From NCBI GenBank assembly GCA_947494145.1, contig CANLTZ010000005.1, forward strand, positions 124,001-188,000: DNA of 64,000 bases. The letters run 5' to 3'. This stretch comes from an uncultured Jannaschia sp. GTDB lineage: Bacteria > Pseudomonadota > Alphaproteobacteria > Rhodobacterales > Rhodobacteraceae. The position numbers and the translations under genes are program-made. Shown here piece by piece: positions 46,185 through 62,841 of this stretch (its first letter is position 1; every line of letters starts with the position of its first letter). Below the pieces are notes generated by a model. It had not been told where the DNA came from and did not search any database. It worked only from the letters and a program-made list of their open reading frames with translations.

Positions 46185-46230
46185 TGGTGCCCGGGGGCGG
46201 AATCGAACCACCGACACGAGGATTTTCAAT
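46185..46230. repeat. attL: 46-bp copy of the tRNA-Phe 3' end
   Basis: Identical to 60924-60969, the 3' 46 bp of the intact tRNA-Phe(GAA) gene (CCA end through part of the anticodon stem). Identity stops at both sides (T versus C at the inner edge, A versus G at the outer). This is the leftover chromosomal half-site created by island integration; it is not a functional tRNA. The rest of the 331-bp gap from 46086 to 46417 shows no gene. Confidence 0.95.
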
Positions 46231-46417
46231 TAGGCTTGTGATCCGCACGGGCTGTCTCAGGATCGCTCAACCCTTAACGTAGCAGATTGATTATTTTGAT
46301 CTTTGCGCTCGGCAGATCGTCTCGAACCTGCGCACTCCGCCACATTCAAGCCCACTGCTTCCGCTACCCCAGCGATACCCACAATGCTACATAGCTGCCT
46401 AAACATCGCCATATAGC

Positions 46418-49378: not shown

Positions 49379-49451
49379 CTGGTCGCAAAGGATTTCAGTT
49401 CATCTAGGATTGTCCCTGACGTGACACGTCCACCCATCTTATCATGGGCCT

Positions 49452-50669
49452 ATGAAACGCAAACTCACCACCAAGTTCATCGAGGGCCAGAAGCCGAACC
49501 CGTCCAAGCGTCTCGATTTCCGTGACGAATTGATGCCGGGCCTCGTCCTGCGCATCAGCACGTCCGGCACCAAGACGTTCTGCCTGCACAAGCGTATCAA
49601 CGGCAGGATGCGTCGCCTAACCATCGGGCGCTTCCCTGTCTTATCGCTGGCCGAAGCGCGTGAGCGGGTGCGGCAGGTCCTATATGAAATCGAGGCGGGC
49701 CGGTTCGAGGACCGAACTGGTGTGGAGGTCGAAACAAAACCTACGCTGGGCGCGGTGATCCCTGACTACATGGAGAAGTACGCCAAGGTTCACAACCGTG
49801 ACTGGAAGCGCAAGGAAGCGTTGTTGGCGAAGTTCACGACCCTGCACGACAAGCAGATCGACCAGATCAAGCGTGCCGATGTCGTGAAAGCCTGCGACGT
49901 GATCCACAAATCAGCGCCAACGAGCGCAAACCGGGCGCTGGCCCACCTCAAGCACCTGATGGGCTGGTGCGTCGAGCGCGGCATGATCGATGCCAACCCC
50001 ATCGCTGGGATGAAGCCGTTGTCCAAGGAAAGGTCGCGCGAGCGTGTCCTGACTGATGGAGAGCTGGGCGCGCTGTGGGCGACCTGTGACGCCGAAGGCT
50101 ATCCTTTCGGGGATTGCATGAAGCTGTTGATCCTGAGTGGCCAGAGACGCGCTGAGGTCGCCGAAATGCGATGGTCGGAAATCGACCTCGAAAAACGCCT
50201 GTGGACCCTTCCTTCGCAGCGCGCCAAGAACGGCAGGCAGCACGCCGTTCCGATCACCGACGCGATGTTGGACGTTCTGCACAGGGTGCCGAGGTTCCTC
50301 GGTTCGGACTACGTATTCACGACCACCGGCAAATCTCCCGTGTCGGGCTTCGGGCGCGTGAAAAAACGGCTCGATAGGGCATTGCCCGAAGGCACGGAGC
50401 CGTGGATCATTCACGACCTGCGACGCACGATGTCCACGAACATGGCGATGCTGGGCGTCCCACAGCCCGTCACCGAGGCGCTGTTGAACCACAAAACGGG
50501 TGTGGTCTCAGGCGTGGCGGCTATCTACAATGTTTATTCATACGCGGACGAGAAGCGCGAGGCGCTTGAGCTTTGGAATAGCCATGTCGAAAAAGTCACC
50601 AGATCAGCCGTATTATCTGAAGTACCGCGAGTTGGGGTGGCTGGATCGACCGCTCCCACAAGCGCCTGA
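49452..50669 (+). CDS. int: Tyrosine-type site-specific integrase (P4-like, DUF4102 arm domain)
   Basis: A 405-residue recombinase that inserts and excises the island at tRNA-Phe. The N-terminal arm-binding DUF4102 domain reads FIEGQKPNPSKRLDFRDELMPGLVLRIS; a core-binding domain lies at about residues 100-190. The catalytic domain has Arg232 (LSGQRRAEVAEMRW), Lys259, His321 and Arg324 (IHDLRRT), His347 and the nucleophile Tyr359 (AAIYNVYSY). It is divergent from the STAND gene, with 73 bp between them. The integrase is not at the island edge; the STAND gene separates it from attL. Confidence 0.93.
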   Translation: MKRKLTTKFIEGQKPNPSKRLDFRDELMPGLVLRISTSGTKTFCLHKRINGRMRRLTIGRFPVLSLAEARERVRQVLYEIEAGRFEDRTGVEVETKPTLGAVIPDYMEKYAKVHNRDWKRKEALLAKFTTLHDKQIDQIKRADVVKACDVIHKSAPTSANRALAHLKHLMGWCVERGMIDANPIAGMKPLSKERSRERVLTDGELGALWATCDAEGYPFGDCMKLLILSGQRRAEVAEMRWSEIDLEKRLWTLPSQRAKNGRQHAVPITDAMLDVLHRVPRFLGSDYVFTTTGKSPVSGFGRVKKRLDRALPEGTEPWIIHDLRRTMSTNMAMLGVPQPVTEALLNHKTGVVSGVAAIYNVYSYADEKREALELWNSHVEKVTRSAVLSEVPRVGVAGSTAPTSA

Positions 50670-51285
50670 GTTTTTTTCACAAAAAGCAATTGACCGGCTT
50701 TGCCGCATTGGTGGGGCGGACGATGAAACCGACCGAATACGCCTAGCTGATGATCTTCGAACCATCGCCAAAGTCTTTTGGGGCGCGGCTATGTCCAGTC
50801 CTCTCGGCGTTCAAGGTGGGCCAGAGGCACAGACGCCTGACGCCAGAAAACGAACGATGACGAGTTCGGTCTTGCGTCCCGCCGAGAAGTTGATCGAGGC
50901 GCTTTCCGACGACAACCTAACTCTTCTTTCAGAATGGCCTGATGAATTGCCGTCGGTCCCGCCAAACCGGCATATACTCATCCAAGAATTGACCAGACTC
51001 AGAAATCGCACGAGCGACCTTTTCGAGGTCTTGGATGACCGAAAACGAAAAGGTTCGTCGGTTTCTCAGGAGTTCAAGATCGATTTCGGGAACGCACTTG
51101 CTGGCGTGCTTGAACGGTATTTTCCAGACATCAGAGCATCGCGTGGTGGATATGATCGCACTCCGGGTCCCAGCAGCGAATATCAGGAATTCCTGAATGC
51201 ATGTGCACAAGAGGTCTTCGGTGAAGGTTTCAAGTTCTCAGGCGCCGTGCTGGACGAGATAGCGAAGCTGCCCCGAAATCAATAA
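50584..51285 (+). CDS. Hypothetical protein next to the integrase
   Basis: A 233-residue protein starting MSKKSPDQPYYLKYRELGWLDRP, overlapping the last 86 nt of the integrase gene in another frame. The continuous, protein-like composition well beyond the overlap supports it as real. It is predicted soluble and helical, with charged middle regions (LLSEWPDELPSVPPNRHILIQELTRLRNRTSDLFEVLDDRKRK). No known domain was recognised. Position suggests co-transcription with int, perhaps as an excision or regulatory accessory; this is a guess. Confidence 0.6.
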   Translation: MSKKSPDQPYYLKYRELGWLDRPLPQAPEFFSQKAIDRLCRIGGADDETDRIRLADDLRTIAKVFWGAAMSSPLGVQGGPEAQTPDARKRTMTSSVLRPAEKLIEALSDDNLTLLSEWPDELPSVPPNRHILIQELTRLRNRTSDLFEVLDDRKRKGSSVSQEFKIDFGNALAGVLERYFPDIRASRGGYDRTPGPSSEYQEFLNACAQEVFGEGFKFSGAVLDEIAKLPRNQ

Positions 51286-51363
51286 ACCTACGTACAAAAT
51301 GCGCAGCCTTAGCTATGCCTCTGATATCACTGCGTTTCAGTCTGTCATATGTTGTCCAAACAT

Positions 51364-51375
51364 GGAGCCGGCTCC
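51364..51375. promoter_or_regulatory. Perfect 12-bp palindrome upstream of the AlpA gene
   Basis: GGAGCCGGCTCC, 28 bp before the AlpA-like start codon. A possible operator for the AlpA protein or another island regulator; only one copy was noticed. Confidence 0.35.
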
Positions 51376-51402
51376 TTTGTCTAACCGACGAAAGGGAAAT
51401 CC

Positions 51403-51627
51403 ATGAAGGACGAAACAGACAGACCATTGCTTGTAACGCGCGACGACCTCAAGCGCTTTGGCATCCGCGTAAGCAATACGACTTTGCTTCGCTGGGAGGC
51501 CCGTGGGCGCTTTCCGCGCAGGGCCAGAATGGGCGGCACCACGGTTACGTGGTTCATGTCGGAAATTGAGGACTGGCTTGCTGAACGCGCCGAAGAACGC
51601 GCTCGCACGCACTACGCCGACTACTGA
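51403..51627 (+). CDS. alpA: AlpA-family regulator / excisionase-like protein
   Basis: A 74-residue helix-turn-helix protein of the MerR-like AlpA group, reading TRDDLKRFGIRVSNTTLLRWEARGRFPRRARMGGTTVTWFMSEIEDWLAERAE. This is the standard AlpA layout: HTH, wing with basic residues, then the W-x-x-xEIxxWL helix. AlpA proteins control integrase expression or act as excisionases in P4-like elements. The ATG follows AAAGGGA. It lies 23 bp before the primase gene, with which it probably forms an operon. Confidence 0.85.
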   Translation: MKDETDRPLLVTRDDLKRFGIRVSNTTLLRWEARGRFPRRARMGGTTVTWFMSEIEDWLAERAEERARTHYADY

Positions 51628-51650
51628 TCACCCCGAAAAGGAGAATTGGG

Positions 51651-53423
51651 ATGCGAAAAGTATTTCGCTTCGAGGGTGACATGTTGTCGTCCTCGATTAT
51701 CAAAGCCGCGCTCGCTTGGGCGCGGCATGGCGGCAAAATCATCGCCTTGCATGGCATTGATGATGACGGCCAATGCACTTGCGGCAAGCCTGATTGCAAG
51801 AGTCCGGGCAAGCATCCAATCGCGGAATTGTTTCCGAAGGGGCAGCATAGCGCCACGAGTAGCGCGGTTAAAATCCGTCGCGCGTTCAAGAAGTACCCCA
51901 ATGCCAACTTCGGCGTGATCCTTCCGCCGGGGCTGGTTGTGCTCGATGTTGACGGCCCGGAGGGGGCCAAAACCTTCAAGAAGCTGAACCTGCCACCCAC
52001 TCTTTCAGTTCGAACCGGCCGCGGGACACACTACTATTTCCGCGCCTCGGAGGCCCTACCCAAGAGGAAAGCACCGCTTACCGGCATAGACATCAAGGAC
52101 AATGCCAGTGGATATCTCGTAGGCCCACCCAGTATGCACAAATGCGGTAGCCGGTATCGTGTGCAGCGTGGAGAGGGCCGCTTGGCGGCGTTGCCTGCCG
52201 ATTTCGTGCGAGCGCTGAAACGCGACAAGAGCCGGACAGCGAACTTCGACGCGGTCGGGGCCTTTAAGGTCGGGAGCCGCAACAGTGAGCTGACCAAGAT
52301 TGCCGGGTCACTTAGGTTTCGCGGTTTGGCCGAAACGGCCATCGCAGGTGCGTTGCAGGCGATCAACGCAGCGGCGTGTAGTCCACCCCTCGACGCCGAT
52401 GAGGTCGAGCGTATTGCCTCCAGCGTTGGCAAATACGAGGCCGGGCACGAAGCGGCTTTTGGCTGGCTCGGAGACGTCGAGGAGTCCACGCCGCAATTCT
52501 CGATGTATCCTTATGTCGTGAAAGGTGCCTTGACTGTCCTCGACGGGAACATGGGGCAAGGGAAATCTACCTTTACCTGTGCCATCGCTGCCGCCGTGAC
52601 GACCGGGAAGCCGCCGCCATTCGTGGATGAGATAGAGGCCGGTTCGGTGCTGTTCATGTCCGCCGAGGATGACCCGTCGCGGGTGCTGAAACCCCGCCTC
52701 ATGCAGGCCGGGGCCGATGTTTCAAAGGTCCGCTTCCAACAGGAGCCGTTTTCCTTGGACGAGCGCGGTTTGGCGTTGCTCCGGCAGGAACTGTCGGCAA
52801 ACACGCCCGCCCTCGTCGTGATCGATCCGATTATCGCCTTCATGAAGGAGGGTGCGGACGGGAACAAGGCAACCGAGACCATGCAATTCATGGTGCAGAT
52901 AGACCAGTTGGCGCGCGAGTTCGACACGGCCATTCTGATCGTGCGGCACCTTCGGAAGGCGCGGGCTGACCATGCCATGCACCAAGGTATCGGGTCGATT
53001 TCGATATCGGCTCGGGTGCGGTCTGGCCTGATCCTCGCGCCGCATCCCGACGACCCGCGCTTGCGCGCGGTGGCCCACGCTAAGTCAAACTATGCCGAGC
53101 CGGGTCCGACAATTGTGTTTGAGATGCAGAGCACCGGGCCACGCTCACACCCCCGCGTGAAATGGCATGCCTGCGAGCCTGAATTGACGGTGGGCGAACT
53201 ACTCGCGCCTCCCGAGGCCGAACGGGGCCGACCGCCACGAGAACGCGACACTGCGACCGCGTGGCTGGAAAGCGTACTCCGAAAGGGGCCGGTCAAGAAG
53301 AAGGCGCTCGACGGCTGGGCCAAGGAAAAAGGGATCTCACTCCCTACGCTCCGACGCGCAGGCGAAGCCCTCGGCGTGGTGAAGTCGAAAGACGGGAAAG
53401 CCTCCGTCTGGTCGCTGCCCTGA
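51651..53423 (+). CDS. Bifunctional primase-polymerase with RepA-like AAA ATPase domain
   Basis: A 590-residue replication protein. The N-terminal prim-pol domain has Asp99 and Asp101 in VVLDVDGPEG, His127 in RTGRGTHYYF and the GIDIKDNASGYLVGPPSMH loop. A PriCT-like segment follows at about residues 205-260 (RNSELTKIAGSLRFRGL). The RecA/RepA-like ATPase domain has Walker A DGNMGQGKSTF (about residue 300), Walker B LVVIDPIIAFM, and AILIVRHLRKA. The tail KGISLPTLRRAGEALGVVKSKDGKASVW looks like a winged helix. The ATG follows AAGGAGAA. It should let the excised island replicate, as in P4-like satellites. A small Cys cluster (CTCGKPDCK) sits near residue 45. Confidence 0.87.
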   Translation: MRKVFRFEGDMLSSSIIKAALAWARHGGKIIALHGIDDDGQCTCGKPDCKSPGKHPIAELFPKGQHSATSSAVKIRRAFKKYPNANFGVILPPGLVVLDVDGPEGAKTFKKLNLPPTLSVRTGRGTHYYFRASEALPKRKAPLTGIDIKDNASGYLVGPPSMHKCGSRYRVQRGEGRLAALPADFVRALKRDKSRTANFDAVGAFKVGSRNSELTKIAGSLRFRGLAETAIAGALQAINAAACSPPLDADEVERIASSVGKYEAGHEAAFGWLGDVEESTPQFSMYPYVVKGALTVLDGNMGQGKSTFTCAIAAAVTTGKPPPFVDEIEAGSVLFMSAEDDPSRVLKPRLMQAGADVSKVRFQQEPFSLDERGLALLRQELSANTPALVVIDPIIAFMKEGADGNKATETMQFMVQIDQLAREFDTAILIVRHLRKARADHAMHQGIGSISISARVRSGLILAPHPDDPRLRAVAHAKSNYAEPGPTIVFEMQSTGPRSHPRVKWHACEPELTVGELLAPPEAERGRPPRERDTATAWLESVLRKGPVKKKALDGWAKEKGISLPTLRRAGEALGVVKSKDGKASVWSLP

Positions 53424-53542
53424 TCCGCGCGTCACGATCACTTGCTCAGAAGTCGCGCACGTGTGGGATTTTTGAGCAAGTGTTTATCCAAAACCGAAAA
53501 CCGCGCTCATACGAGTGCAAAGTGGAAGAGTATGGTGATAAA

Positions 53543-53761
53543 ATGCAAGATCGCGATGAACACTTGAACCAATTAGAAAATGCAATTTTTGACGCTCTGG
53601 AAATCGAAGTAGAGAGACAAGAAAGGGAGCAGACTGGCTTGAGCTGTATTGAAATCGCTAAAGTACTAATCGCGATTGCGCACGTTCACTTATCATTTGA
53701 CATGCCGAGCGACGAAGAGCTTTCCGAAATTGAGGATAGCGACGCGCGAAAATTGAACTAG
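53543..53761 (+). CDS. Small acidic hypothetical protein
   Basis: A 72-residue acidic protein, MQDRDEHLNQLENAIFDALEIEVERQEREQTG and onward, ending DEELSEIEDSDARKLN. Its AT-richer codons and helical, charge-patterned sequence look real, although the ribosome site (GGTGA) is weak; a GTG at 53522 is an alternative start. No family recognised. It follows the primase gene after 119 bp. The next 250 bp (53762-54010) show no convincing gene. Confidence 0.45.
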   Translation: MQDRDEHLNQLENAIFDALEIEVERQEREQTGLSCIEIAKVLIAIAHVHLSFDMPSDEELSEIEDSDARKLN

Positions 53762-54010
53762 CGCATAGATCAGCTTCAGAAACAGAACCATGGCGGGGGC
53801 TGACACCCGAGGTGGCCCGCGCCCAATTCTCTATTGGCAGATGACCTACAAAGAAACGAGCGGCTGGGGGTCGAAAACCTCGGCAATCAATATGACCCCT
53901 TGTCCACCCACGAGGCGCGAGCCGATAAAAAAACGCCTCCCCCCATCCCCCTTTGGTCGCCTTGTGACAGCGCCGCGCGGAACGCCTCGGACCGACCCGT
54001 TGACTATCTA

Positions 54011-54115
54011 TCAGTCTGTCGGATGCGTGCCGGACCCAAATTGCCATGCCTTTTCAAGCAGTCCGCATTCGCGCTGGGTTTCGGCATAGCGCGCCGGGTT
54101 CCACTCGGGTGGCAA
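54011..54115 (-). CDS. Possible very small protein
   Basis: A 34-residue reading frame from a TTG at 54115 (LPPEWNPARYAETQRECGL, then LEKAWQFGSGTHPTD). The composition is protein-like and the same frame is open upstream into the preceding gene, so it could be the tail of a longer or frameshifted protein. No ribosome site was identified. Offered as a weak candidate. Confidence 0.25.
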   Translation of the reverse strand: MPPEWNPARYAETQRECGLLEKAWQFGSGTHPTD

Positions 54116-54140
54116 ACTGCTTGGGCGGAGGTGCTGGCGG

Positions 54141-54371
54141 TCATCCCTGCACCCACCCCTTGCGATGGTAGTGGCGCAGCACGATGGCGCGGTTGAACAG
54201 GGGGAAGCCGATCCACAGGCCGTTTGCAGTGATCAGCGACAGGATCGCCCACAGGAACATGCCCTTGAACAGGTAGTAGAACGGGCCGAAAAGCAGGCAC
54301 CACAGGCGGTGCCAGTTGCCCAGAATGATTTTCGTCTGGCCGTTGAAAGCCCATGTCGCGCGTATCGTCAT
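54141..54371 (-). CDS. Small membrane protein, DUF2628-like
   Basis: A 76-residue protein starting MTIRATWAFNGQTKIILGNWHRL with two hydrophobic segments (LWCLLFGPFYYLFKGMFLWAIL and LITANGLWIGFPLFNRAIVL), ending HYHRKGWVQG. The G-PFYYL-KG-F motif and the C-terminal HY-RKGW match DUF2628-type proteins. Function unknown. The 280 bp upstream (54372-54651) contain no recognised gene. It may be island cargo or a passenger gene. Confidence 0.6.
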   Translation of the reverse strand: MTIRATWAFNGQTKIILGNWHRLWCLLFGPFYYLFKGMFLWAILSLITANGLWIGFPLFNRAIVLRHYHRKGWVQG

Positions 54372-54651
54372 TGCCGATTTCCTCGCTGGCCGGTTTCGAT
54401 GCCAGCGCAATAAGATCGGGGACCATTGCCCGTCAGGGTAATTCCCGCGCGGCCTATGGAGACCATAGGGGTGCCGATGCACCGCTTCCGTGCAGATGCC
54501 GGGATGATCGCCATGAGCGCGCCGCACAGCGCGCCAGCCAGTATTGCGACGGGATCACCATGCCCGAGGCACGCCCCGGCGCTTCTGGCTCAACACAACG
54601 CCGCCGCGCGCGCGCTTCGCTCTCGATGTTCGGGGTTAGTTGCAGGCGCAT

Positions 54652-55266
54652 TCAGTTTCGCCCCAGCGCGCGGCGCAGGTCGCTCAGCGTCGGTTTGAAC
54701 GGATGCCCTGACATGCTCAGGTTCAGGGGTAAGGGTGGGCCGTTCCTGATTAGCGTTTCCTCAAGGGACCACGGTTCGTCATGCTGCACGACCGAGATCG
54801 CCGCGTGCTCGGCGATCCAATCTGACAGCTTGTTTTCGTGGTAGCGGTCCATGCGAACACGGTTCCTCTTGTCGCGCCAGAACGCAAGATCAAGCTCTCG
54901 CTCAAGAAGGGCCGCAAGCGACAAACGCAGGGTCGAGGAGCGCACGGTCCCGCGTAGGTGGTTGCGCCAAAGTCGGCTTTTCACAGGTGTTGGCCCACCT
55001 CGGCGCACTGGCCGATCCTTTGGCGGTGCGATGCCAATGTAGAGCAGGTGTTTCCCGTCACGCTCTATGCAACCGTCCCTTGGCACCAAAGGCAGGCGGT
55101 GGTCTAACCACCAGCCGTAGACGCCGTGCGTGACCGCGTGCCGATCGATGAAATCCAAGACATGATCGGGCAGCAGCAGGGCCTCGGGCGACTGGATGGC
55201 CCTCGCCTCGCTAGATAGACTATGAGTCAACCACGAGGGCGCACGTCCCCCTGCCTCTTCCTGCAT
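54652..55266 (-). CDS. GIY-YIG nuclease-fold protein
   Basis: A 204-residue protein with GIY-YIG elements: GVY (48-50), LLYIGIA (74-80), Arg98 and His103 in KSRLWRNHLRG, Glu169/Glu170 in SLEETLI and Asn182 in PLPLN. The GIY-to-YIG spacing is longer than in homing enzymes. STLRLSLAALL and the HPF near the C terminus are typical of a bacterial subgroup. The N terminus is uncertain: the ATG at 55266 places a C-box-like palindrome inside codons 13-18, and a TTG at 55230 would start within that palindrome. It is divergent from the C-protein-like gene. A restriction-like role is inferred from that context; no DNA methyltransferase is nearby. Confidence 0.68.
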   Translation of the reverse strand: MQEEAGGRAPSWLTHSLSSEARAIQSPEALLLPDHVLDFIDRHAVTHGVYGWWLDHRLPLVPRDGCIERDGKHLLYIGIAPPKDRPVRRGGPTPVKSRLWRNHLRGTVRSSTLRLSLAALLERELDLAFWRDKRNRVRMDRYHENKLSDWIAEHAAISVVQHDEPWSLEETLIRNGPPLPLNLSMSGHPFKPTLSDLRRALGRN

Positions 55267-55331
55267 TCCTGAATGTCGCCAGTGACTTCGGGCCTTCCGT
55301 CAGCCTAAGTCGAATATGACTCATAGTCTAT
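55215..55331. promoter_or_regulatory. Pair of C-box-type operators (GACT-N3-AGTC) in inverted arrangement
   Basis: Two identical 15-bp sequences in opposite orientation, ATAGACTATGAGTCA at 55215-55229 and TGACTCATAGTCTAT at 55317-55331. Each contains a perfect GACT-N3-AGTC dyad, the established recognition motif of restriction-modification controller (C) proteins. Centres are 102 bp apart. They flank the divergent promoters of the GIY-YIG and XRE genes. Confidence 0.75.
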
Positions 55332-55357
55332 GGTCGAGAGCGTGACCGCCATGCGCC

Positions 55358-55576
55358 ATGCCGCGCATGTCAATTCAATCGCGCGTTTCGAGAAATATCC
55401 AGAGGATCAGGAGGGAGAAGGACCTTTCGCAAGAAGAGGTCGCCCATCGCGCGGACATTCACCAGACCTACCTAAGCGGCGTCGAAACCGGGAAGCGCAA
55501 CCCGTCGATCTTGGTAGTCGAGCGCATCGCCAAGGCCCTCGGCGTGGACGTCTCGGAAATCTTCAAGCCGAACTAG
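55358..55576 (+). CDS. XRE-family regulator resembling restriction-modification controller (C) proteins
   Basis: A 72-residue single-domain helix-turn-helix protein: RNIQRIRREKDLSQEEVAHRADIHQTYLSGVETGKRNPSILVVERIAKALGV. Its size and the TYLSG-E-GKRNPS recognition region resemble C proteins of type II restriction-modification systems, and GACT-N3-AGTC sites lie 27 bp upstream. An alternative ATG is at 55367. Expected role: auto-regulation and timing of the divergent GIY-YIG gene. It is followed by a small gene at 55642. Confidence 0.82.
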   Translation: MPRMSIQSRVSRNIQRIRREKDLSQEEVAHRADIHQTYLSGVETGKRNPSILVVERIAKALGVDVSEIFKPN

Positions 55577-55641
55577 GGTTATCCCTGACACGCTCCGATC
55601 TTGCGTCTTATCGATCTTCATCAGCAACTTAGGAGATCGAA

Positions 55642-55854
55642 ATGACCGACATCGTGACGCTCAAGGCCATCTGCGAAGAACTCAAGATCGACCCGCGCGA
55701 GGCCCGTGAACGCCTACGCGCCGCCGCCAGCGACGCCAAGGCGAACCCTGAACTGGTTAAGGCAAGAAAGCCCCGGACCCCGTGGCAATGGGTGAAGGGG
55801 TCAGCCGCCGAGAAGGAGGCTCGGCGCGCCTTGCAGCCGAAAAAGCCTTCGTAG
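55642..55854 (+). CDS. Small conserved hypothetical protein
   Basis: A 70-residue basic protein starting MTDIVTLKAICEELKIDPRE, with an AREKLR-like helix (AREARERLRAAASDAKANPELVKA in part) and a PRTPWQWVKGSAAEKEARRAL tail. Similar small proteins are common in alphaproteobacterial mobile elements. The leading part could form an HTH-like fold. The ATG follows TAGGAGA, a strong ribosome site. Function unknown. A terminator lies 29 bp downstream. Confidence 0.68.
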   Translation: MTDIVTLKAICEELKIDPREARERLRAAASDAKANPELVKARKPRTPWQWVKGSAAEKEARRALQPKKPS

Positions 55855-55883
55855 GGCTACCCAACACATCAGCGAACAACGAG

Positions 55884-55910
55884 AGGGGCGCACATCGCGC
55901 CCCTTTCCTT
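55884..55910 (+). terminator. Rho-independent terminator
   Basis: Perfect 8-bp stem AGGGGCGC / GCGCCCCT with loop ACATC, followed by TTCCTT. It ends the C-protein-like transcript before the toxin-antitoxin-like pair. Confidence 0.7.
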
Positions 55911-56122
55911 GGTCAACACTGGCGTCGGAACCGCTCACCGCATCGTTCCCGAACAGATCGGTGTGGCAGATGTCGTCAGCCAATCCTAGCCTCACGACAG
56001 TTCGCTCGTGACTTTTGCGGCTAAGCCCGCTACACCCGCTGCATGTATGACTGCTGGGAAGATGTTGTAAGCGACGTGCCTTCCAAGGCTCCATTTTGTG
56101 CAACTTTTGGGATGCTGGATCC

Positions 56123-56446
56123 TTGGAACCGACTTTTTCGAGCAAGCTCATGAGGGACTTGGCAACAGAACCCAAGAAAGCCTACCGTCACCTCGGAAGT
56201 GAAAACGGTCAGGCGTTCATTGGTTTGGTGGCGGATTTCAGGGCGGCGTTCTTTGCCGGTGACGTGCCTATGGGACCGCTTTCGGCGACGAAAGTCGAAG
56301 GCACCTTTGAGCTGGACTGGTTCGTATCCACTGGCTGCACACTGAAGACGTTGATAGCTGCATCCGGCGTTGGAGACGAAGCGTGGAAGGATGCTCATCG
56401 AATCCACCTAAACGCTATCGTAATTGAAGGGGAGGTGTTTGCTTGA
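56123..56446 (+). CDS. HigB/RelE-superfamily toxin-like protein
   Basis: A protein of about 107 residues. The pattern FSSKLMRDLATEPKKAYRHLGSENGQAFIGLVADFRAAFFAGD, then FELDWFVSTGCTLKTLIAA and a closing AHRIHLNAIVIEGEVFA follows the secondary structure of RelE/HigB-like toxins. Key catalytic residues could not be assigned. The start is uncertain: TTG 56123 keeps the usual first strand, ATG 56150 is shorter, TTG 56096 longer. Its stop overlaps the next start (TGATG), the usual arrangement of reverse-order HigBA pairs. Toxin activity is an inference. Confidence 0.6.
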   Translation: MEPTFSSKLMRDLATEPKKAYRHLGSENGQAFIGLVADFRAAFFAGDVPMGPLSATKVEGTFELDWFVSTGCTLKTLIAASGVGDEAWKDAHRIHLNAIVIEGEVFA

Positions 56447-57570
56447 TGTTTGAACCAAACTGGGCTTCCCCACCGGGCGACACAATCGCACGGCTGGCTG
56501 CGGCTGGAAAAACATCAGTTCACGATTTGGCCGAACGCATCGGGTTCGAAGAAGACTTGTTTTCTGGAATAATGGAAGGGCGCGTTGTGATTTCCGATGA
56601 AATCGCAGACGCCCTATCTTCGGAGCTTGGTGCATCGCGCCAGTTCTGGATCGAACGCTATAACCAGTTTCTGGGCGATAGAGCGCGGCTTGCAGGTTCT
56701 GCGTCAACCGAAGAGCTGTCTAGGTGGGGGCAGTCGTTTCCAGTTCGAGCCCTCCGAGAACTCGGTTGGCTGCCGAAAGGCTCTCGCGGTGAGCGTCTAT
56801 CCGAGGACATCCTGAGCTTTTTTGGATGCGATAGCATCAGCGGTTGGAACGAGCGGTACTCCGCTGGGATTGGCCAAGTTGCATTTCGAACATCTTTTGC
56901 CTTTGAGACCGACGAGATGGCGACTTTGGCTTGGCTGCGTATCGGAGAGATGCAAGCTGAAAACCTGACCTTGGCGAAGTTTTCAGCGAGCAATTTCAAG
57001 AAACGTCTGACTGAGTTGAAGAAGCTATGTGCGCTCAAGCGCCCCGAGTTATTCTTTTCAAAACTGCAGCAAGCTTGCGCTGAGGAAGGTGTTGGTCTGG
57101 TAAGCTCGAAGGCCCCGAAAGGTTGTCGAGCAAGCGGTGCCACTTGGACATCCCAAAACGGCAACCCGATTATCTTGCTAAGCTTTCGCTATTTGAGTGA
57201 AGACCATTTCTGGTTCACTTTTTTCCACGAGGCCGCACACGTGGTTCTGCATGGCACTGACCACATTTCGGTGGATGGCGCTGATCCGTCACCGCTAGGC
57301 GCGTCTGTATTCGAAGATGAAGCTGACATTTTCGCTCAAGATACGCTTGTTCCGGCTGACTTGCGAGATGAGATGTTAAACGCAATGCCGACCCGTCCTC
57401 ATGCAAGGAGAATCGCTCGTAAAGCCGGGGTAACACCGGGCATTATTGTCGGACAGCTTCAAAAAGCTGGGGCACTCCAGCCGCACCAATTTAATGATCT
57501 AAAGCGCCGTTACAAATGGGAAGGGAGCACTAAACTGCCGGTCCTTTCTCAACCTCGGAAATATTCGTAA
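56446..57570 (+). CDS. XRE HTH protein fused to ImmA/IrrE-type metallopeptidase
   Basis: A 374-residue protein. The N-terminal 70 residues are an XRE/HigA-like HTH (ETIARLAAAG-type GDTIARLAAAGKTSVHDLAERIGFEEDLFSGIMEG); the C-terminal part is a DUF955/ImmA-IrrE zinc peptidase with FTFFHEAAHVVLHG (HExxH, about residue 265) and DEADIFAQDTLVP downstream. Such fusions act as antitoxins or as anti-repressors that cleave regulators. It is translationally coupled to the HigB-like gene. It ends 22 bp inside the convergent pyrophosphorylase-like gene. The ATG at 56446 follows GGGGAGG. Confidence 0.82.
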   Translation: MFEPNWASPPGDTIARLAAAGKTSVHDLAERIGFEEDLFSGIMEGRVVISDEIADALSSELGASRQFWIERYNQFLGDRARLAGSASTEELSRWGQSFPVRALRELGWLPKGSRGERLSEDILSFFGCDSISGWNERYSAGIGQVAFRTSFAFETDEMATLAWLRIGEMQAENLTLAKFSASNFKKRLTELKKLCALKRPELFFSKLQQACAEEGVGLVSSKAPKGCRASGATWTSQNGNPIILLSFRYLSEDHFWFTFFHEAAHVVLHGTDHISVDGADPSPLGASVFEDEADIFAQDTLVPADLRDEMLNAMPTRPHARRIARKAGVTPGIIVGQLQKAGALQPHQFNDLKRRYKWEGSTKLPVLSQPRKYS

Positions 57571-58484
57571 ACATCAGGGCTTTTTTGCCAATTGCAGAGG
57601 CTGTCTTCGATCACCTGTTTTCCCACGCCAAGAATCCCGTCCAAGGCATCAACGCGAGGCTCCAAGGCTCTACCGGTAATGTGATGGTCGCGATCACCGA
57701 AAAACAGTAGCCGCGCCCCTACAAGCGGTCCTGTTGCCTTATCCAAGTAGACGCTGCCTGGTGTAATCGGAGCAAGCTGAAGTTTGCCGAGCATCGTAAG
57801 GAAATCGAACCTTCCGAGGCGTCCTCCACCGAAGCCAAACACCCCCTTCATGGACTTGTAGAGAGCATCGAAAGCCGCTTGGGGTTCCTGACCAACACTT
57901 GCATGTGTCGCGATCATTCGATCACGAAATCCGCCGAACTCAGTCTGCCACTCATAGTACGTGCGAAACGTCTTCGCTATGGCTTGAGGTTTCTTGCTCT
58001 GAAATTTGCGATGGTTAGAAAAACTACCCGAAATGCTGGCGTCCGCCAACCGGCCAGAGTTTGCGGCCAACATGTTCTCGAACCCTGCAGGGTCTGCAGC
58101 ATACTGTGCGAACGTCCAAACTGGTCCCACGCCAAACGAACCATAGACATTTGCAGCCAGCTTCCATTCGTCTACCGCATGTTTTCCGAAATGGGTGAGG
58201 ACGAAAGTTAACCAGACCGCTTCGTCGAGTTGTCCGCTTCTCTGAAAGTGAAGCGCCCCTCGTACAGGGTCGAAAATACCAGAATGCGGATCACACCTCG
58301 CCGCATTCACGCTACGCATCAACAAAGTATCAGTATATGAAATTCGACGTAGGCTGGACACGATCTGTTGCGCCCAGCACTGTCTCCGTTGAGCAGTCGC
58401 GATTCCGGGAAGGGGGCCAAGCTGTTCAATTTTTTCAATGAACTCATTTAATCTGTCTTTGTGGATGCCGTTCATGCCTTGCAC
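57549..58484 (-). CDS. Alpha-glutamyl/putrescinyl thymine pyrophosphorylase-like protein (aGPT-PPlase, probably clade 3)
   Basis: A 311-residue protein with signature segments of this family: LGPLPGIATAQRRQCWAQQIVSSLRRISYTD (about 22-52), FDPVRGALHFQRSGQLDEAVWLTFVLTHFGKH, NHRKFQSKKP, GRFDFLTMLGKLQLAPITPGSVYL, and the C-terminal LGVGKQVIEDSLCNWQKSP. In phages, aGPT-PPlases are predicted (Iyer et al. 2013) to attach amino acids or polyamines to activated hydroxymethyl-pyrimidines in DNA; bacterial members are uncharacterised. The start is GTG 58484, 1 nt after the upstream thymidylate-synthase-like gene, or ATG 58475. Family assignment is from recalled motifs, and activity is unproven. Confidence 0.8.
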   Translation of the reverse strand: MQGMNGIHKDRLNEFIEKIEQLGPLPGIATAQRRQCWAQQIVSSLRRISYTDTLLMRSVNAARCDPHSGIFDPVRGALHFQRSGQLDEAVWLTFVLTHFGKHAVDEWKLAANVYGSFGVGPVWTFAQYAADPAGFENMLAANSGRLADASISGSFSNHRKFQSKKPQAIAKTFRTYYEWQTEFGGFRDRMIATHASVGQEPQAAFDALYKSMKGVFGFGGGRLGRFDFLTMLGKLQLAPITPGSVYLDKATGPLVGARLLFFGDRDHHITGRALEPRVDALDGILGVGKQVIEDSLCNWQKSPDVYEYFRG

Positions 58485-58485
58485 C

Positions 58486-59562
58486 TTAACCTGCGTTCTC
58501 GAATAGGTCTCGAACGGGCGATTGCTTTCTCTGCAGCTTGTCGCGAATATATATTTCGTAGATCGGCGAAATTTCCTTCATTGTCTTAACAATTCGGCGC
58601 AACTCGGGCCTTTCAGTTGTAAGGTCATCGCCGCGTTTCCTCATGTCTTCAAACATCTTGTGAATTCTAAAAAGTTCAATGAAGTCCTTCCAGTACCGAG
58701 CGAGGTCTGTCGGCGCGGTATATTCGATGTTTCCGCCCCTAATTTCCCGCTCGGCGATCTTCACCTGTTCGATGTCCGGCCAAGGGTTTCCTGAGGGCAT
58801 CTCAGGCATTGGACGAGATTCATGAAAGCCTTCTCGATAATAGGCCTCAGCACCAGACGTTGAAGTGTTCGCAGGACGATCTTCCGTTGCTGCGCTGTCA
58901 TGGTATAAATGTAAACTTGCCACTGAGTGCGTGTACCTTCCCAGCCCGTAGCCAAGTTCACGAGACGCTATCTCTTGCAGCATGGTAAATGTAAAAATGT
59001 CATGGGGAAGCCCGAAGAATGCATCATTGGAACGCATATGCGTGTGCATCAACAACTGCCCGTTCCTGACCGCGAACTGAATGGTGCAGGTGCATGGCTT
59101 GTCTCCGTTCTTCGGCTTTGCATCGGTATTGGCGTAAATCTGAATAAGAGCGTTACGGGAGCCTTCTCGTTCACGCAGAGTGCGGATCACCCGATCCCAT
59201 TCACTGGTTTGATCGCTCTTCTTAGACGCCATATCGCCGAATATACGTGGTCCGTAGGCCCCATTCGCCGTAATTTCGTTTTTGATCAGCTTCGGGTAGT
59301 TGGGGATGTAGTGTTTGATGAACTCGACGCTATCACTGCCCGCCAAGTACCAAAACAACTCGCCAAGCGGACTGAAGGCTTTGGCTTTCGAGAATGACCT
59401 GCTCAGTCGCGCGCGCGGGTTCTTAAGCTCTAAGAGCGCGCCGAAGACCTCAGTGCTTCTACCTTTGCTGGAGTCGACTTCGAAATTCCCGCGCCCTGTG
59501 AGCAGCTGCTTGAAAACGGCTCTCAATAGGTCGTCTAGGCTATCCTCGCTCGCGTGAAACAC
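58486..59562 (-). CDS. Thymidylate synthase-family protein, predicted dCMP (hydroxy)methylase
   Basis: A 358-residue thymidylate synthase homologue. Conserved: GRSTEVFG (phosphate Arg), SPLGELFWYLAGSDSVEFI, GAYGPRIFG, catalytic Cys157 in KPCTCTIQF (canonical PPCHxxxQF), phosphate-binding RS at 177-178 with Asp180, and HLY at 218-220. The residue equivalent to E. coli ThyA Asn177, which selects uracil, is Asp188 (GLPHDI instead of GxPFNI). Asp there is found in T4 dCMP hydroxymethylase and converts L. casei TS to dCMP use. The substrate is therefore predicted to be dCMP. GTG start. Middle gene of an operon with a Shedu-like and an aGPT-PPlase-like gene. Confidence 0.85.
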   Translation of the reverse strand: MFHASEDSLDDLLRAVFKQLLTGRGNFEVDSSKGRSTEVFGALLELKNPRARLSRSFSKAKAFSPLGELFWYLAGSDSVEFIKHYIPNYPKLIKNEITANGAYGPRIFGDMASKKSDQTSEWDRVIRTLREREGSRNALIQIYANTDAKPKNGDKPCTCTIQFAVRNGQLLMHTHMRSNDAFFGLPHDIFTFTMLQEIASRELGYGLGRYTHSVASLHLYHDSAATEDRPANTSTSGAEAYYREGFHESRPMPEMPSGNPWPDIEQVKIAEREIRGGNIEYTAPTDLARYWKDFIELFRIHKMFEDMRKRGDDLTTERPELRRIVKTMKEISPIYEIYIRDKLQRKQSPVRDLFENAG

Positions 59563-59657
59563 TATCGCTCAACCTCATCTGTCGGTTGAATGTCTGCCTT
59601 CCACGATACGCTTTCAAGAGTAAGCCTAGGATTAATTCGCTCTGCCACATCAGATGG

Positions 59658-60743
59658 CTAGGTCATGCGCTGCACGCTTACTACCACGCCGTGCTCGGAG
59701 ACGTTTTTGGATATTCTCTCGGCTCGCTCAAGCAACCAGTCGAAGCCCACAACCTTCACCCGATGGCGGGCACCATTAAGTGCCGCCAAGGTCGCCTTTT
59801 GCTCGGGTGTCAAAGTGCTTTCCAAGCCGACGACAACCAAGCAGTCTGGATCAGAGAAGCCAGAAAAGAAGTCTTTCACAGTTCCGATATGACTAAGCAT
59901 GTAATTCCGGTAATCTGTCACTTGATGTTCGGCGTGGGTGACCTCTGCAGAAGGGTGTCCTGCCCAAGTAATAAGCGTCTTTGCGGGGCATTCGATTTCG
60001 ACAACCAGATAACTTCCGTCCGAACGCTTTACAACGAAGTCAGGTTTTCGAGAGCCGAACAAGTTCGGTTCCGGCCAAACCTCAATTGCCATTGGATCCA
60101 AGAGTTGAGGGTTAGTCTCTAAGAAACGCTGAAAAGCAGGTTCATCATTTGGGTTAGTTGTGATTAGGTCGCCGAAGTCTTTCAATACGCGATCACCAAT
60201 GGCAAGCCATCGACTTGATGCTGATCGGATAAGCTCAATGGCAGCACTATCGTCCCTGAAGCTTTGTTTTTGAAGTACTCCACCGATCAAACTAGCAACG
60301 TCATCGATGGCTTCCACAGAAAGCACCAAGTCGACTAAGGCCCTTCGCGCTGCTTGTTGGACAGCAGACGGCACTTCACCTGCCACCGCTATCTGGTCCC
60401 AAATATCTGTTGAAGCGCCTAGTTCTACTCTCGTTGGTCCCTTTCCCGCCGCCGCTCCCGAAAGGATGTCAAAAACCAACGTACGATTGGCATAGCTTTC
60501 GTTTTCCGAGAAAACGCGTTTCAGTTCTTCCACGCCCGCCTCTCCCCACGCAAGTAACGCAGTTCCTGCAGGTTCTTTGAATTCCCATTTGTAAGTATGA
60601 CCACCATAGTCGTCGGCAAATAGCCGTCGGACGTGTTCAATCGCTGTTTTGCCCCCATCGTCCATACATATCGTCAGGAACTTATGGAGCACCTGAAGGT
60701 TCATTGGGGACGAATAAAACTCTTCGATAGCGTCTTCTAGCAA
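59658..60743 (-). CDS. Shedu-like DUF4263 nuclease-fold protein
   Basis: A 361-residue protein. Residues 1-190 are helical and unrecognised. The C-terminal DUF4263 domain reads EPAFQRFLETNPQLL (201-215), KPDFVV (Asp235), LVVEIECP (Glu249, Glu251) and HQVTDYRNYM (273-282), the layout of the PD-(D/E)xK Shedu antiphage nuclease SduA. The usual catalytic Lys is Glu251 here; an ExE site also occurs in BamHI, so activity is not excluded. The start is TTG 60743 behind AGGACG. It is the first gene of the three-gene leftward set, 95 bp upstream of the thymidylate-synthase-like gene. Confidence 0.8.
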   Translation of the reverse strand: MLEDAIEEFYSSPMNLQVLHKFLTICMDDGGKTAIEHVRRLFADDYGGHTYKWEFKEPAGTALLAWGEAGVEELKRVFSENESYANRTLVFDILSGAAAGKGPTRVELGASTDIWDQIAVAGEVPSAVQQAARRALVDLVLSVEAIDDVASLIGGVLQKQSFRDDSAAIELIRSASSRWLAIGDRVLKDFGDLITTNPNDEPAFQRFLETNPQLLDPMAIEVWPEPNLFGSRKPDFVVKRSDGSYLVVEIECPAKTLITWAGHPSAEVTHAEHQVTDYRNYMLSHIGTVKDFFSGFSDPDCLVVVGLESTLTPEQKATLAALNGARHRVKVVGFDWLLERAERISKNVSEHGVVVSVQRMT

Positions 60744-60923
60744 GCTGTCGTCCTATTCTTTCTGTCCATCGTAGCAGCACAGGCAGCTGCATCTAGCGAA
60801 AAGACCAACGTGCGACGACCTCGATTTCATCATGTAATGCTACCCAAATGATACCCACACCAAGTTGTGCAGTCTCGTGGCGCTAGACACCATGGGTTAG
60901 TCGCTTGTTTTATTTTGTTTTTG

Positions 60924-60969
60924 TGGTGCCCGGGGGCGGAATCGAACCACCGACACGAGGATTTTCAAT
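60924..60969. repeat. attR: 46-bp direct repeat within tRNA-Phe
   Basis: Right boundary of the island; perfect match to 46185-46230. Excision between the two repeats would remove about 14.7 kb and leave one intact tRNA-Phe gene. Confidence 0.95.
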
Positions 60970-60998
60970 CCACTGCTCTACCCCTGAGCTACCCGGGC
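60924..60998 (-). tRNA. tRNA-Phe (anticodon GAA), island integration site
   Basis: The reverse complement gives acceptor GCCCGGG/CCCGGGC, D-arm AGCTCAGGGGTAGAGC, anticodon loop TTGAAAA (GAA), T-arm GGTTCGATTCC and encoded CCA. The second pair of the anticodon stem is a T-T mismatch. The 3' 46 bp are island-derived and duplicated at 46185-46230, so integration restored an intact gene. The gap from 60999 to 61269 has no recognised gene. Confidence 0.94.
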
Positions 60999-61269
60999 AC
61001 GGATTTTCGAAGGGATGGCCTTCGATGGGTCGCGTTCGTCTAGGCCACGCCCGGTGCGGTGTCCAGACCCGATTTCCCACCGGATCACGCAGCCCGATGG
61101 CGTGTTCATGACAGGCTTGGAACAGACCCGTCCGATGATTGCCGACCCATACAGCATTCTCGGCCAGTTCCTGCCGTTTCCTTAGCGTCACGGGCGCCGC
61201 CCTCGCCACGTCCCGGAATTCGAGGCGACCGTCTGATCTGGCCTGATGCTCACCAGCGGGAGGATGACC

Positions 61270-62841
61270 ATGGCACGGATAGGCGGCGACAGCGACCTTC
61301 GTGACGCCGGGATGGCGGAAACCATCCGCGCCTTCGACGGCAACGATGCGATCGACCTGCAAAGCGGAGTCGATCTGGTGCGTGTTGGCATGGGCGCTGA
61401 CATCATCTTCGAAGCCGATACGGACTTTGCGGGAAGCGGAAACAGCAATTCTGCTCTCCTTGCCAGTCCCCACGCCGCGGGCATGGACCTGGCTGGCGAT
61501 GACGCGGCATTTCTGGCTACTTTTCCTGCCAGCCAAAGCGTCCGCATTGATGCCAGCAATGGCTTGGACATACTGAGCTTTGGCACCATCCCGATCGCCG
61601 ACGTGGATGTGACCATCTCCGACGCCAGCAGCCTCAGATTTGATGGTGTGCTCTCACCGCTCAACCAGAACACCAATTTCGAAAGCATCACTGGCAGCGA
61701 CGCAGATGACAAGTTGTCCGGCAATGCCAGTGACAGCCTCTTTGTTGCGGGCGGCGGCGACGATACCGTCATGGCCCGCAGCGGGGATGACACCGTCCTG
61801 GGCGGCACCGGTGATGATCGGCTTTCCGGCGGCCCGGGCGACGACATTGTGGAGGGCGGGACAGGTGATGACACGCTCTTTGGCGGCGACGGCGATGACA
61901 GCTTGGTGGCCGGCGACGGCACCGACCGGCTTTACGGCGGGACGGGGGAAGACACGCTGGTCGGCGGCGGTGACGGCGACCTGCTGAACGGGCGCGACGA
62001 TGCCGACCTGATTATCATCGCCAGCGTGGGCTCGGGCCCGACAACGACCACCACCGTCTTGGGCGGGCTTGGCGGCGATGACAATGACACGCTGGATATC
62101 GGCCCCTTGCTGGATCAGGGCTTCATCGTTCAGAATTTCTCCCGCCGTCCCGACGTGGGTGGGGATGGCTTTGATTATCGGATCGAGTTGTTCAATCCCG
62201 ATACGGGTCAAACCGCCATCATCGGCGCCCACGACATCGAAAACCTGGCGACGCCCATCTGTTTTACCTGTGGCACGATGATCGCGACGGCCCATGGCGA
62301 ACGCCCGGTCGAAACCTTGCGCCCCGGGGATCGGATCATTACCCGCGATGACGGCATCCAGCCCCTGGCCTGGGCTGGCGCCCGCCATCTGAGTGCTGCC
62401 GAACTGCGCCTGCGGCCGCATCTGCGACCTGTGCGCATCCGTGCGGGCGCGCTGTGCCCCGGCCTGCCCGCGCAGGACATGCTGGTCAGCCCCCAGCACC
62501 GGATGCTCGTCGCTGACACGGCGCTGGCGCTGGTTGCTGCCGAGACCGAGGGGCTCGCCGCAGCCAAGCACATGACTGGCTGGGGTGGCATCGAACGCTG
62601 CCTGCCTCTGGGCGGCGTCACCTATCGGCATCTGTTGTTTGAGCGGCACCAGATCGTACTGGCCAACGGCACTTGGTCGGAAAGCTTCCAACCGGGGCTG
62701 CAATCGCTGCGCGGCTTGGGGGCGGCCCAGCGCCGCGAGATCCTGACGTTGTTCCCGGTTCTAGAGACCGAGCCGGGCCTGGCCAGCTATATCGCCGCAC
62801 GCCCCGCACTCAGCCGTCGGGTGGTGGCAGCGATGGGCTGA
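61270..62841 (+). CDS. RTX calcium-binding repeat protein with C-terminal Hint domain
   Basis: A 523-residue protein. Residues about 155-250 contain tandem RTX nonapeptides (GGGDDTV, GGTGDDRLSGGPGDDIVEGGTGDDTLFGGDGDDSL), which bind calcium after export, usually by a type I secretion system. From residue 331 a Hint_2 domain begins with Cys (CFTCGTMIATAHGERPVETLRPGDRIITRDDG) and continues with LVSPQHRMLV and the late HLLFERHQIVLANGTWSESFQPG. There is no N-terminal signal peptide. The ATG at 61270 follows GGGAGG. The Hint may self-cleave or act as a secretion/anchoring module; the family is common in Rhodobacteraceae. Confidence 0.88.
   Translation: MARIGGDSDLRDAGMAETIRAFDGNDAIDLQSGVDLVRVGMGADIIFEADTDFAGSGNSNSALLASPHAAGMDLAGDDAAFLATFPASQSVRIDASNGLDILSFGTIPIADVDVTISDASSLRFDGVLSPLNQNTNFESITGSDADDKLSGNASDSLFVAGGGDDTVMARSGDDTVLGGTGDDRLSGGPGDDIVEGGTGDDTLFGGDGDDSLVAGDGTDRLYGGTGEDTLVGGGDGDLLNGRDDADLIIIASVGSGPTTTTTVLGGLGGDDNDTLDIGPLLDQGFIVQNFSRRPDVGGDGFDYRIELFNPDTGQTAIIGAHDIENLATPICFTCGTMIATAHGERPVETLRPGDRIITRDDGIQPLAWAGARHLSAAELRLRPHLRPVRIRAGALCPGLPAQDMLVSPQHRMLVADTALALVAAETEGLAAAKHMTGWGGIERCLPLGGVTYRHLLFERHQIVLANGTWSESFQPGLQSLRGLGAAQRREILTLFPVLETEPGLASYIAARPALSRRVVAAMG

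Follow-up and report, generated by a model that had tools for sequence, protein, structure and literature searches.

A compact four-gene module was found in a 64,000-nucleotide stretch of DNA from an uncultured Jannaschia sp. (contig CANLTZ010000005.1), analyzed here as a whole and called the window. A gene of the thymidylate synthase (TS) superfamily, predicted to encode a dCMP 5-hydroxymethylase-like enzyme, is followed on the same strand by a gene for an aGPT-PPlase clade 3/ADDT enzyme (aGPT below). Converging on this pair from the other strand are a small HigB-like gene and a gene for a protein with a helix-turn-helix (HTH) and an ImmA/IrrE M78 peptidase domain. The set of four was found in members of six phyla and is carried by islands, by plasmids and by viral contigs. 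The module thus joins, in distant phyla, phage-type nucleotide-modification enzymes to an immune switch of the toxin-antitoxin (TA)/ImmA type. The module is well supported and a role in defence is likely; its chemistry and the direction of its control are what we infer.

A preliminary description of this DNA had proposed another unit, composed of three leftward genes for a Shedu-type nuclease, the TS and the aGPT enzyme. The three open reading frames (ORFs) and their families were confirmed with Pfam and PADLOC. As a three-gene system, however, the proposal did not hold: Shedu is the least conserved member, present in 4 of 52 genome loci and the window, and the conserved partners, the peptidase gene and the small gene, fall outside the interval that had been proposed. 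Reading the island by same-strand adjacency alone had picked the accessory Shedu gene and missed the conserved convergent partner.

Conservation and spread of the four genes

We scanned one genome per species in 84,980 species with aGPT alignment A1 and found 52 loci, an undercount because two degenerate peptide patterns were used. The TS gene was upstream of the aGPT gene on the same strand in all 48 assessable loci. The gap between them was 60 nucleotides (nt) or less in 40 of these, and an extra gene, c6, lay between them in the other 8. A convergent HTH-M78 peptidase gene stood at the 3′ end of the aGPT gene in 46 of 49 loci, with gaps from −22 to +20 nt and an overlap in 33 of the 46. Ahead of the peptidase gene, a small gene was counted in 45 of the 49 loci; in L056 it is present but lies beyond the distance limit used for this count. 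As for the loci in which the peptidase gene was missed, the aGPT gene is cut short in L019, and L059 of the same genome carries the peptidase and small genes; L060 shows a 93-amino-acid fragment at a contig end. L055 is a real exception, where a carB-like gene comes next and the TS and aGPT genes are kept.

The viral-contig loci had the four genes in five of five cases (L001 and L012 are one and the same DNA, and L003 and L004 are near-identical). Seven of seven plasmid loci examined, from eight plasmid matches, had the TS, aGPT, peptidase and small genes; the TS gene in plasmid locus L064 was missed by the ORF caller and taken from the annotation of the record. Pairwise distances of the four genes correlated over 48 four-gene loci (Spearman 0.56–0.74, values not reached in any of 500 permutations; computed after removal of L001 and L003 and of the duplicates L006, L007 and L012), a correlation that includes host phylogeny and so supports joint inheritance but is not proof of interaction. 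The four genes form one unit, and we have hardly any doubt on this point.

All four genes are carried by Pseudomonadota (alpha, beta and gamma), Acidobacteriota (L044), Actinomycetota (L049, L063), Chloroflexota (L042), Verrucomicrobiota (L052) and Spirochaetota (L066). The Spirochaetota locus is on a Leptospira interrogans plasmid, and its aGPT gene (3941–4874) reads as two overlapping ORFs. A locus from Bacteroidota (L058) ends inside the aGPT gene, with TS, c6 and a partial aGPT gene visible. The module is nevertheless rare. Of 387 genomes in a sample of the class, two had it, the window's own being one; a search of 19 further genomes of the genus found none, and 1 of 60 relatives in all carried it.

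The preliminary description had suggested a search for co-occurrence in other genomes and had named, as evidence against its proposal, a TS-aGPT pair with a housekeeping role in genomes lacking the nuclease. The pair does recur, and it does so without Shedu; the patchy distribution just described does not fit a housekeeping role. Matches to the Shedu profile were limited to the window, L009, L011, L013 and L019, with Shedu-TS gaps of 95, 95, 95, 92 and 31 nt over the five loci (95 nt in the window). Upstream of TS in other loci are genes for Mrr (L020), AbiV (L023) or BilD (L056), or seemingly unrelated genes. Among at least 116 Shedu relatives, 18 were apparently co-located with an aGPT or TS match, 16 of them within the best 33, against 0–4 in a shifted control; co-location was judged by a record-size proxy against the best 120 aGPT and TS matches. 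A simple pattern for the Shedu motif PDx...EIExP was found in 115 of 116 relatives. Shedu was ruled out as an obligatory component on its presence in 4 of 52 loci. In the branch of the window, the protein encoded upstream of TS has the SduA_C domain of Shedu (SduA) systems and is accessory in the module; judged from sequence, it is a recurrent add-on nuclease in one branch. Separately, a gene of about 290 amino acids lies beside TS in L010 and L067, with a sub-threshold match to DUF5677, and clustering links the L010 gene to genes that precede TS in L022 and L028.

The gene c6 (about 265 amino acids; L040, L042, L043, L045, L046, L050, L052, L058 and L066) was seen in eight genome loci and the Leptospira plasmid, and is accompanied by further small ORFs in two of the eight. 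Its family is rich in invariant residues. The two members scanned had no Pfam match, and there was no credible PDB match. A uracil-DNA glycosylase was rejected on a profile probability of 0.3% against 25 such sequences chosen by motif, and a "GLNPS" resemblance seen by eye is not evidence for one. c6 aside, the neighbourhoods show no further enzyme gene that regularly accompanies the TS-aGPT pair.

The enzymes and the convergent pair

The solved structures nearest to the module TS are MilA CMP hydroxymethylases (E = 1.4e-41), with thymidylate synthases far behind (1e-13). Residues were counted over 54 sequences (48 genome loci, 5 viral-contig loci and the window), with the residues of T4 dCMP hydroxymethylase and MilA as given in the available texts of PMC6400193 and PMC5175136 for reference. 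The nucleophile C157 and the cytosine-specific D188 (T4 Cys148 and Asp179; mapping checked on the MilA alignment) were each kept in 54 of 54, in agreement with the "dCMP-type" label of the preliminary description. The deoxy-preferring residues S178 and R136 were found in 54 and 52 of 54 (Ala176 and Lys133 in MilA). An acidic residue three before the Cys, corresponding to T4 Asp145, was found in 48 (D in 42, E in 6; D154 in the window). The catalytic Cys, the cytosine-type Asp and this acidic residue are common to T4 dCMP hydroxymethylase, MilA and the module TS. The module TS differs from them at the position of T4 Ser94 (see below), in its non-MilA, deoxy-type residues and in belonging to a bacterial mobile module rather than a phage genome or an antibiotic cluster. 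We predict a dCMP-directed hydroxymethylase-like enzyme with 5-hydroxymethyl-dCMP as its product. An ordinary thymidylate synthase was ruled out by D188 and by NCBIfam equivalog scores far below cut-offs, and a MilA-like CMP-type enzyme by R136 and S178. A backup role in thymidylate supply is unlikely because ThyX is present elsewhere in the window's genome, where a search gave no ThyA-family match besides the module TS.

Phage relatives of the aGPT/ADDT enzyme transfer amino acids onto hydroxymethyl bases. Both domains of the window's protein scored above the Pfam curated cut-offs (288.9 bits vs 25 for aGPT-Pplase3; 273.2 vs 26.2 for ADDT), and 71 columns are invariant among 29 relatives. These domains are common to the module and to phage thymidine hypermodification, which uses a uracil-type (Asn) hydroxymethylase, in contrast to the cytosine-type TS here. 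No 5-hydroxymethyluracil DNA kinase gene was seen beside the TS-aGPT pair in the neighbourhoods, the rest of the genome not having been searched for a kinase. A sequence search of PDB gave no relative of aGPT. Nor did tblastn with two queries against 50,697 phage records, and a phage origin of the window's aGPT branch was rejected on this result. The available text of PMC8878043 reports a phage carrying clade-3 domains, so more distant phage members exist. A DNA glycosylase of the HhH-GPD type, with which a relation in fold has been described, was not supported by profile comparison (0.2% against 16 Nth-like and 0.1% against 8 MutY-like sequences, chosen by motif).

The HTH of the peptidase protein is HigA-like (PDB HigA, E = 3.4e-11), and the protein weakly matches CapP (0.0035) and IrrE (0.0076). 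Its HExxH motif is kept, with H262 in 52 of 53 sequences and E263 and H266 in 53 of 53. The closest PADLOC model is PD-Lambda-2_B; the RmrA match is weaker (5.6e-5). In a FastTree tree of 73 peptidases, from which L003 (near-identical to L004) and L058 had been dropped beforehand, 58 of the 59 module-linked sequences formed one clade (support 0.896). The only one outside it was L049, an actinobacterial long branch. The sister group of the module clade consists of six peptidases whose genomes gave no aGPT match (support 0.994), and a long branch parts both clades from PD-Lambda-2_B-like peptidases. These six genomes of 387 (L089–L094) carry the HigB-like/HTH-M78 pair without TS-aGPT, possibly as stand-alone TA systems. 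The converse arrangement, with TS-aGPT but no peptidase, turned up once (L055).

The family of the small protein falls into two halves, which match each other at 98.7% (HHalign). The larger half matches eight motif-chosen HigB sequences at 86.6% (E = 4.5e-6), compared with at most 0.5% for three controls. The window's own small protein had no match in Pfam, PADLOC or PDB.

Two described systems resemble this convergent pair. PD-lambda-2, an antiphage TA-like system of E. coli, has the same order of a HigB-like gene and then an HTH-M78 peptidase gene, according to the text available from PMC9519451. The module differs in that its small protein has no PADLOC match to component A, no conserved gene C lies downstream, and a convergent TS-aGPT arm is present instead. 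We did not file the module as PD-lambda-2 because components A and C were not found. RosmerTA, in the available text of PMC10440598, likewise combines an HTH-ImmA protein, there the antitoxin, with a variable partner, namely varied toxins. The partner in the module is instead an arm of two genes for nucleotide-modifying enzymes, encoded on the other strand, and no known RmrT was identified. We file the module as a variant of TA-derived, ImmA-type antiphage systems. As an observation outside the module, loci L095–L100, L102 and L103 have PD-Lambda-2_B-like peptidase genes followed by a gene of about 150–170 amino acids; PADLOC matched only the B model in L100, so the A and C parts in these loci may be unmodelled variants.

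Proposed function and alternatives

Neighbourhoods of the module are rich in defence genes in comparison with a random control, as the preliminary description had led us to look for. From each of 57 loci we took at most three of the closest genes, 157 in total by naive ORF calls, and scanned 148 of them with PADLOC. They matched 156 models (E ≤ 1e-10); among the 25 listed were SduA, Type III restriction-modification (R-M), CapP, CBASS cyclase and GajA (Gabija). As a control, 138 proteins encoded in 19 chromosomal stretches from other genomes matched 22 models; the control set was not balanced for mobile elements, and redundancy inflates the model counts. The control matches to RtcR, ShosA, PsyrA and DpdF were read as generic helicase- or DprA-like matches. 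In a scan of ten neighbours, six had matches: Type III R-M (two genes, L042), Avs2-like/REase and RecD-like (L025), PDC-S06 (L067) and capP (L051).

A role of the module against phages, or in conflict between mobile elements, is probable. More specifically, we propose a TA-derived antiphage system of the abortive type, with the HigB-like/HTH-peptidase pair as the switch and TS plus aGPT as the output, to which we give an even chance. That the enzymatic arm is an output under the control of the HTH-peptidase protein is, taken by itself, somewhat less certain than that. In such a system the HigB-like/HTH-peptidase pair would detect infection and keep the module off until then. TS would make 5-hydroxymethyl-dCMP, and the aGPT/ADDT enzyme might convert the hydroxymethyl-pyrimidine, at the nucleotide level or within DNA, into a product that would poison DNA synthesis. 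This full pathway, in which biosynthesis of modified deoxycytidine is the effector, controlled by the HigB-like/HTH-ImmA switch, and the nucleotide or base that results is antiviral or suicidal, is a speculative proposal.

The switch-and-output proposal is supported by the linkage of the four genes, the dedicated peptidase subfamily, the retained catalytic and dCMP-type residues, the likeness of the peptidase to PD-Lambda-2_B, which belongs to an antiphage system, and the defence-rich mobile context. We favoured antitoxin polarity, as in RosmerTA, because six genomes have the peptidase pair without TS-aGPT and a single locus shows the opposite, a pattern that would be expected were TS-aGPT the arm in need of control. 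Several observations count against the proposal. The polarity of PD-lambda-2 is the opposite, its peptidase protein itself being toxic (available text of PMC9519451). The genome of L055 was searched and had no full-length peptidase of the module family. The window's half of the small-protein family reaches HigB only through the other half. At the position of T4 Ser94, two before the active-site Tyr96, 50 of 54 TS sequences have Gly (G101 in the window), which is why we term the enzyme "like" and not a member of the T4-type dCMP hydroxymethylases. A shared Xre operator upstream of both operons was not found: the best 16-mer matches resembled those in shuffles, mostly 11–13 of 16 with a few 14 of 16. 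The share of host phylogeny in the distance correlation belongs here as well. An operator motif picked by eye was dropped, as it occurred in 2 of 68 loci, both of them cuts of the window's own genome, and the number of its copies in the window (two) was near chance, 6 of 100 shuffles having as many.

The alternative that survives best is a wiring like that of PD-lambda-2, which we consider possible, with no better prospects than the full effector pathway. Here toxicity would lie with the HTH-peptidase protein, the HigB-like protein would neutralise it, and TS plus aGPT would serve as a sensor or safety signal: modified deoxycytidine made by these two enzymes would keep the pair silent until phage takeover of the dCMP pools or DNA removed it. 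The peptidase is PD-Lambda-2_B-like with its HExxH kept, the small protein is HigB-like, and PD-lambda-2B is toxic on overexpression and rescued by A (PMC9519451, available text). In L089–L094, however, the pair occurs without TS-aGPT, so that silencing is possible without these enzymes, and L055 has TS-aGPT without the peptidase. Should the enzymatic arm be a sensor, then a peptidase toxin is licensed by a modified nucleotide; should it be an effector, modified-pyrimidine chemistry is used offensively against phages. Either way, the bacterial branch of the clade-3 aGPT-PPlases gains a concrete, testable role.

Self-marking is unlikely. By this explanation TS and aGPT would modify host DNA or the dNTP pool, and a nuclease (Shedu or others) or the peptidase arm would attack what is unmodified, in the manner of R-M. 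Phage relatives of the aGPT/ADDT enzyme and hydroxymethylase do act in DNA base modification (in part from the available text of PMC8878043), and Shedu stands beside TS in five loci. A constant nuclease is nevertheless absent, given the few loci with Shedu, and the neighbourhoods show no conserved kinase or polymerase partner. Even less probable is an addiction module that stabilises plasmids or islands without antiphage activity; the TA-like pair and its carriage on plasmids and an att-bounded island would suit it, but defence neighbours are frequent. A metabolic or antibiotic-type pathway (thymidylate supply or a MilA-like nucleoside pathway) is highly improbable even though MilA, from an antibiotic pathway, is the best solved relative, since Asp for Asn at the base-recognition site argues against dUMP, ThyX is encoded elsewhere in the host genome, the deoxy-type residues argue against CMP, and the HTH-peptidase partner is constant.

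If the effector pathway is true, phage base-modification chemistry has been borrowed for defence, and a TA system uses metabolic enzymes as its toxin. DefensePredictor (2026), in the available text of PMC13092281, lists thymidylate synthase and 5-hydroxymethyluracil kinase among the domains of validated systems. It also predicts an aGPT-PPlase system as defensive, and credits Burroughs (2015) with the earlier prediction of several such domains. An aGPT-PPlase domain is common to that predicted system and the module. Among the matches listed in literature searches on Shedu, aGPT-PPlase, hypermodification, TS/ImmA/TA and hydroxymethylase/defence island, the four-gene module was not described. 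The composition may have been drawn earlier in the literature; we found no test of it.

Genes of the window and the island

Table 1. Features of the window, in window positions.
Feature	Position	Strand	Evidence and remarks
Shedu-type (SduA_C) gene	59658–60743	-	PF14082, E = 6.4e-12; PADLOC SduA, 2.1e-20; accessory to the module
TS-superfamily gene, predicted dCMP 5-hydroxymethylase-like	58486–59562	-	PF00303 Thymidylat_synt, 5.6e-20, partial, residues 65–223
aGPT-PPlase clade 3/ADDT gene	57549–58484	-	PF18746 aGPT-Pplase3, 5.3e-86; PF18724 ADDT, 2.6e-81
HTH (Xre/HigA-like) and ImmA/IrrE M78 peptidase gene	56443–57570	+	PF06114, 2.1e-9; PD-Lambda-2_B, 1.3e-28
Small HigB-like gene	56096–56446	+	Family comparison with HigB; true start possibly further in
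Integrated island	46185–60969	.	46-nt exact direct repeats at both ends
Tyrosine integrase gene of the island	49452–50669	+	Arm-DNA-bind_3, Phage_integrase (Pfam)

A single nucleotide separates the TS and aGPT ORFs as called, in agreement with the preliminary description. The peptidase gene converges on the aGPT gene, their 3′ ends sharing 22 nt, and it shares 4 nt with the small gene. Non-ATG starts had been proposed for the Shedu, TS and aGPT genes, a proposal that depends on calling the longest ORF. The GTG start of TS agrees with its relatives, of which 24 of the 39 examined start MFHASE. The aGPT gene probably starts at an ATG at 58475, because its relatives start at the ATG of codon 4 (M-x-G-I/L-H-K/R). 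For Shedu both lengths have their match: the entry for the window protein itself in the database (P0241, 348 amino acids) starts at the ATG of codon 14, and several close relatives have 361 amino acids, the longer form.

The mobile island of the preliminary description was borne out. A perfect 46-nt direct repeat (46185–46230 and 60924–60969), its right copy within a tRNA-Phe gene (60924–60998), bounds 14.7 kb of lower mean G+C that includes the integrase gene. The Shedu, TS and aGPT genes make up the right end. Beside the left att repeat, a gene on the minus strand (46418–49378) encodes a 986-amino-acid protein with tetratricopeptide repeats and a weak AAA_16 match; it is STAND-like and possibly a further defence gene of the island. 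A protein with a GIY-YIG nuclease domain (PF20815, 2.2e-20) is also encoded within the island (54652–55266, minus strand). Just beyond it, on the plus strand, an ORF at 61246–62841 has GGxGxD-type repeats and a Hint-like C-terminal part, as judged by eye.

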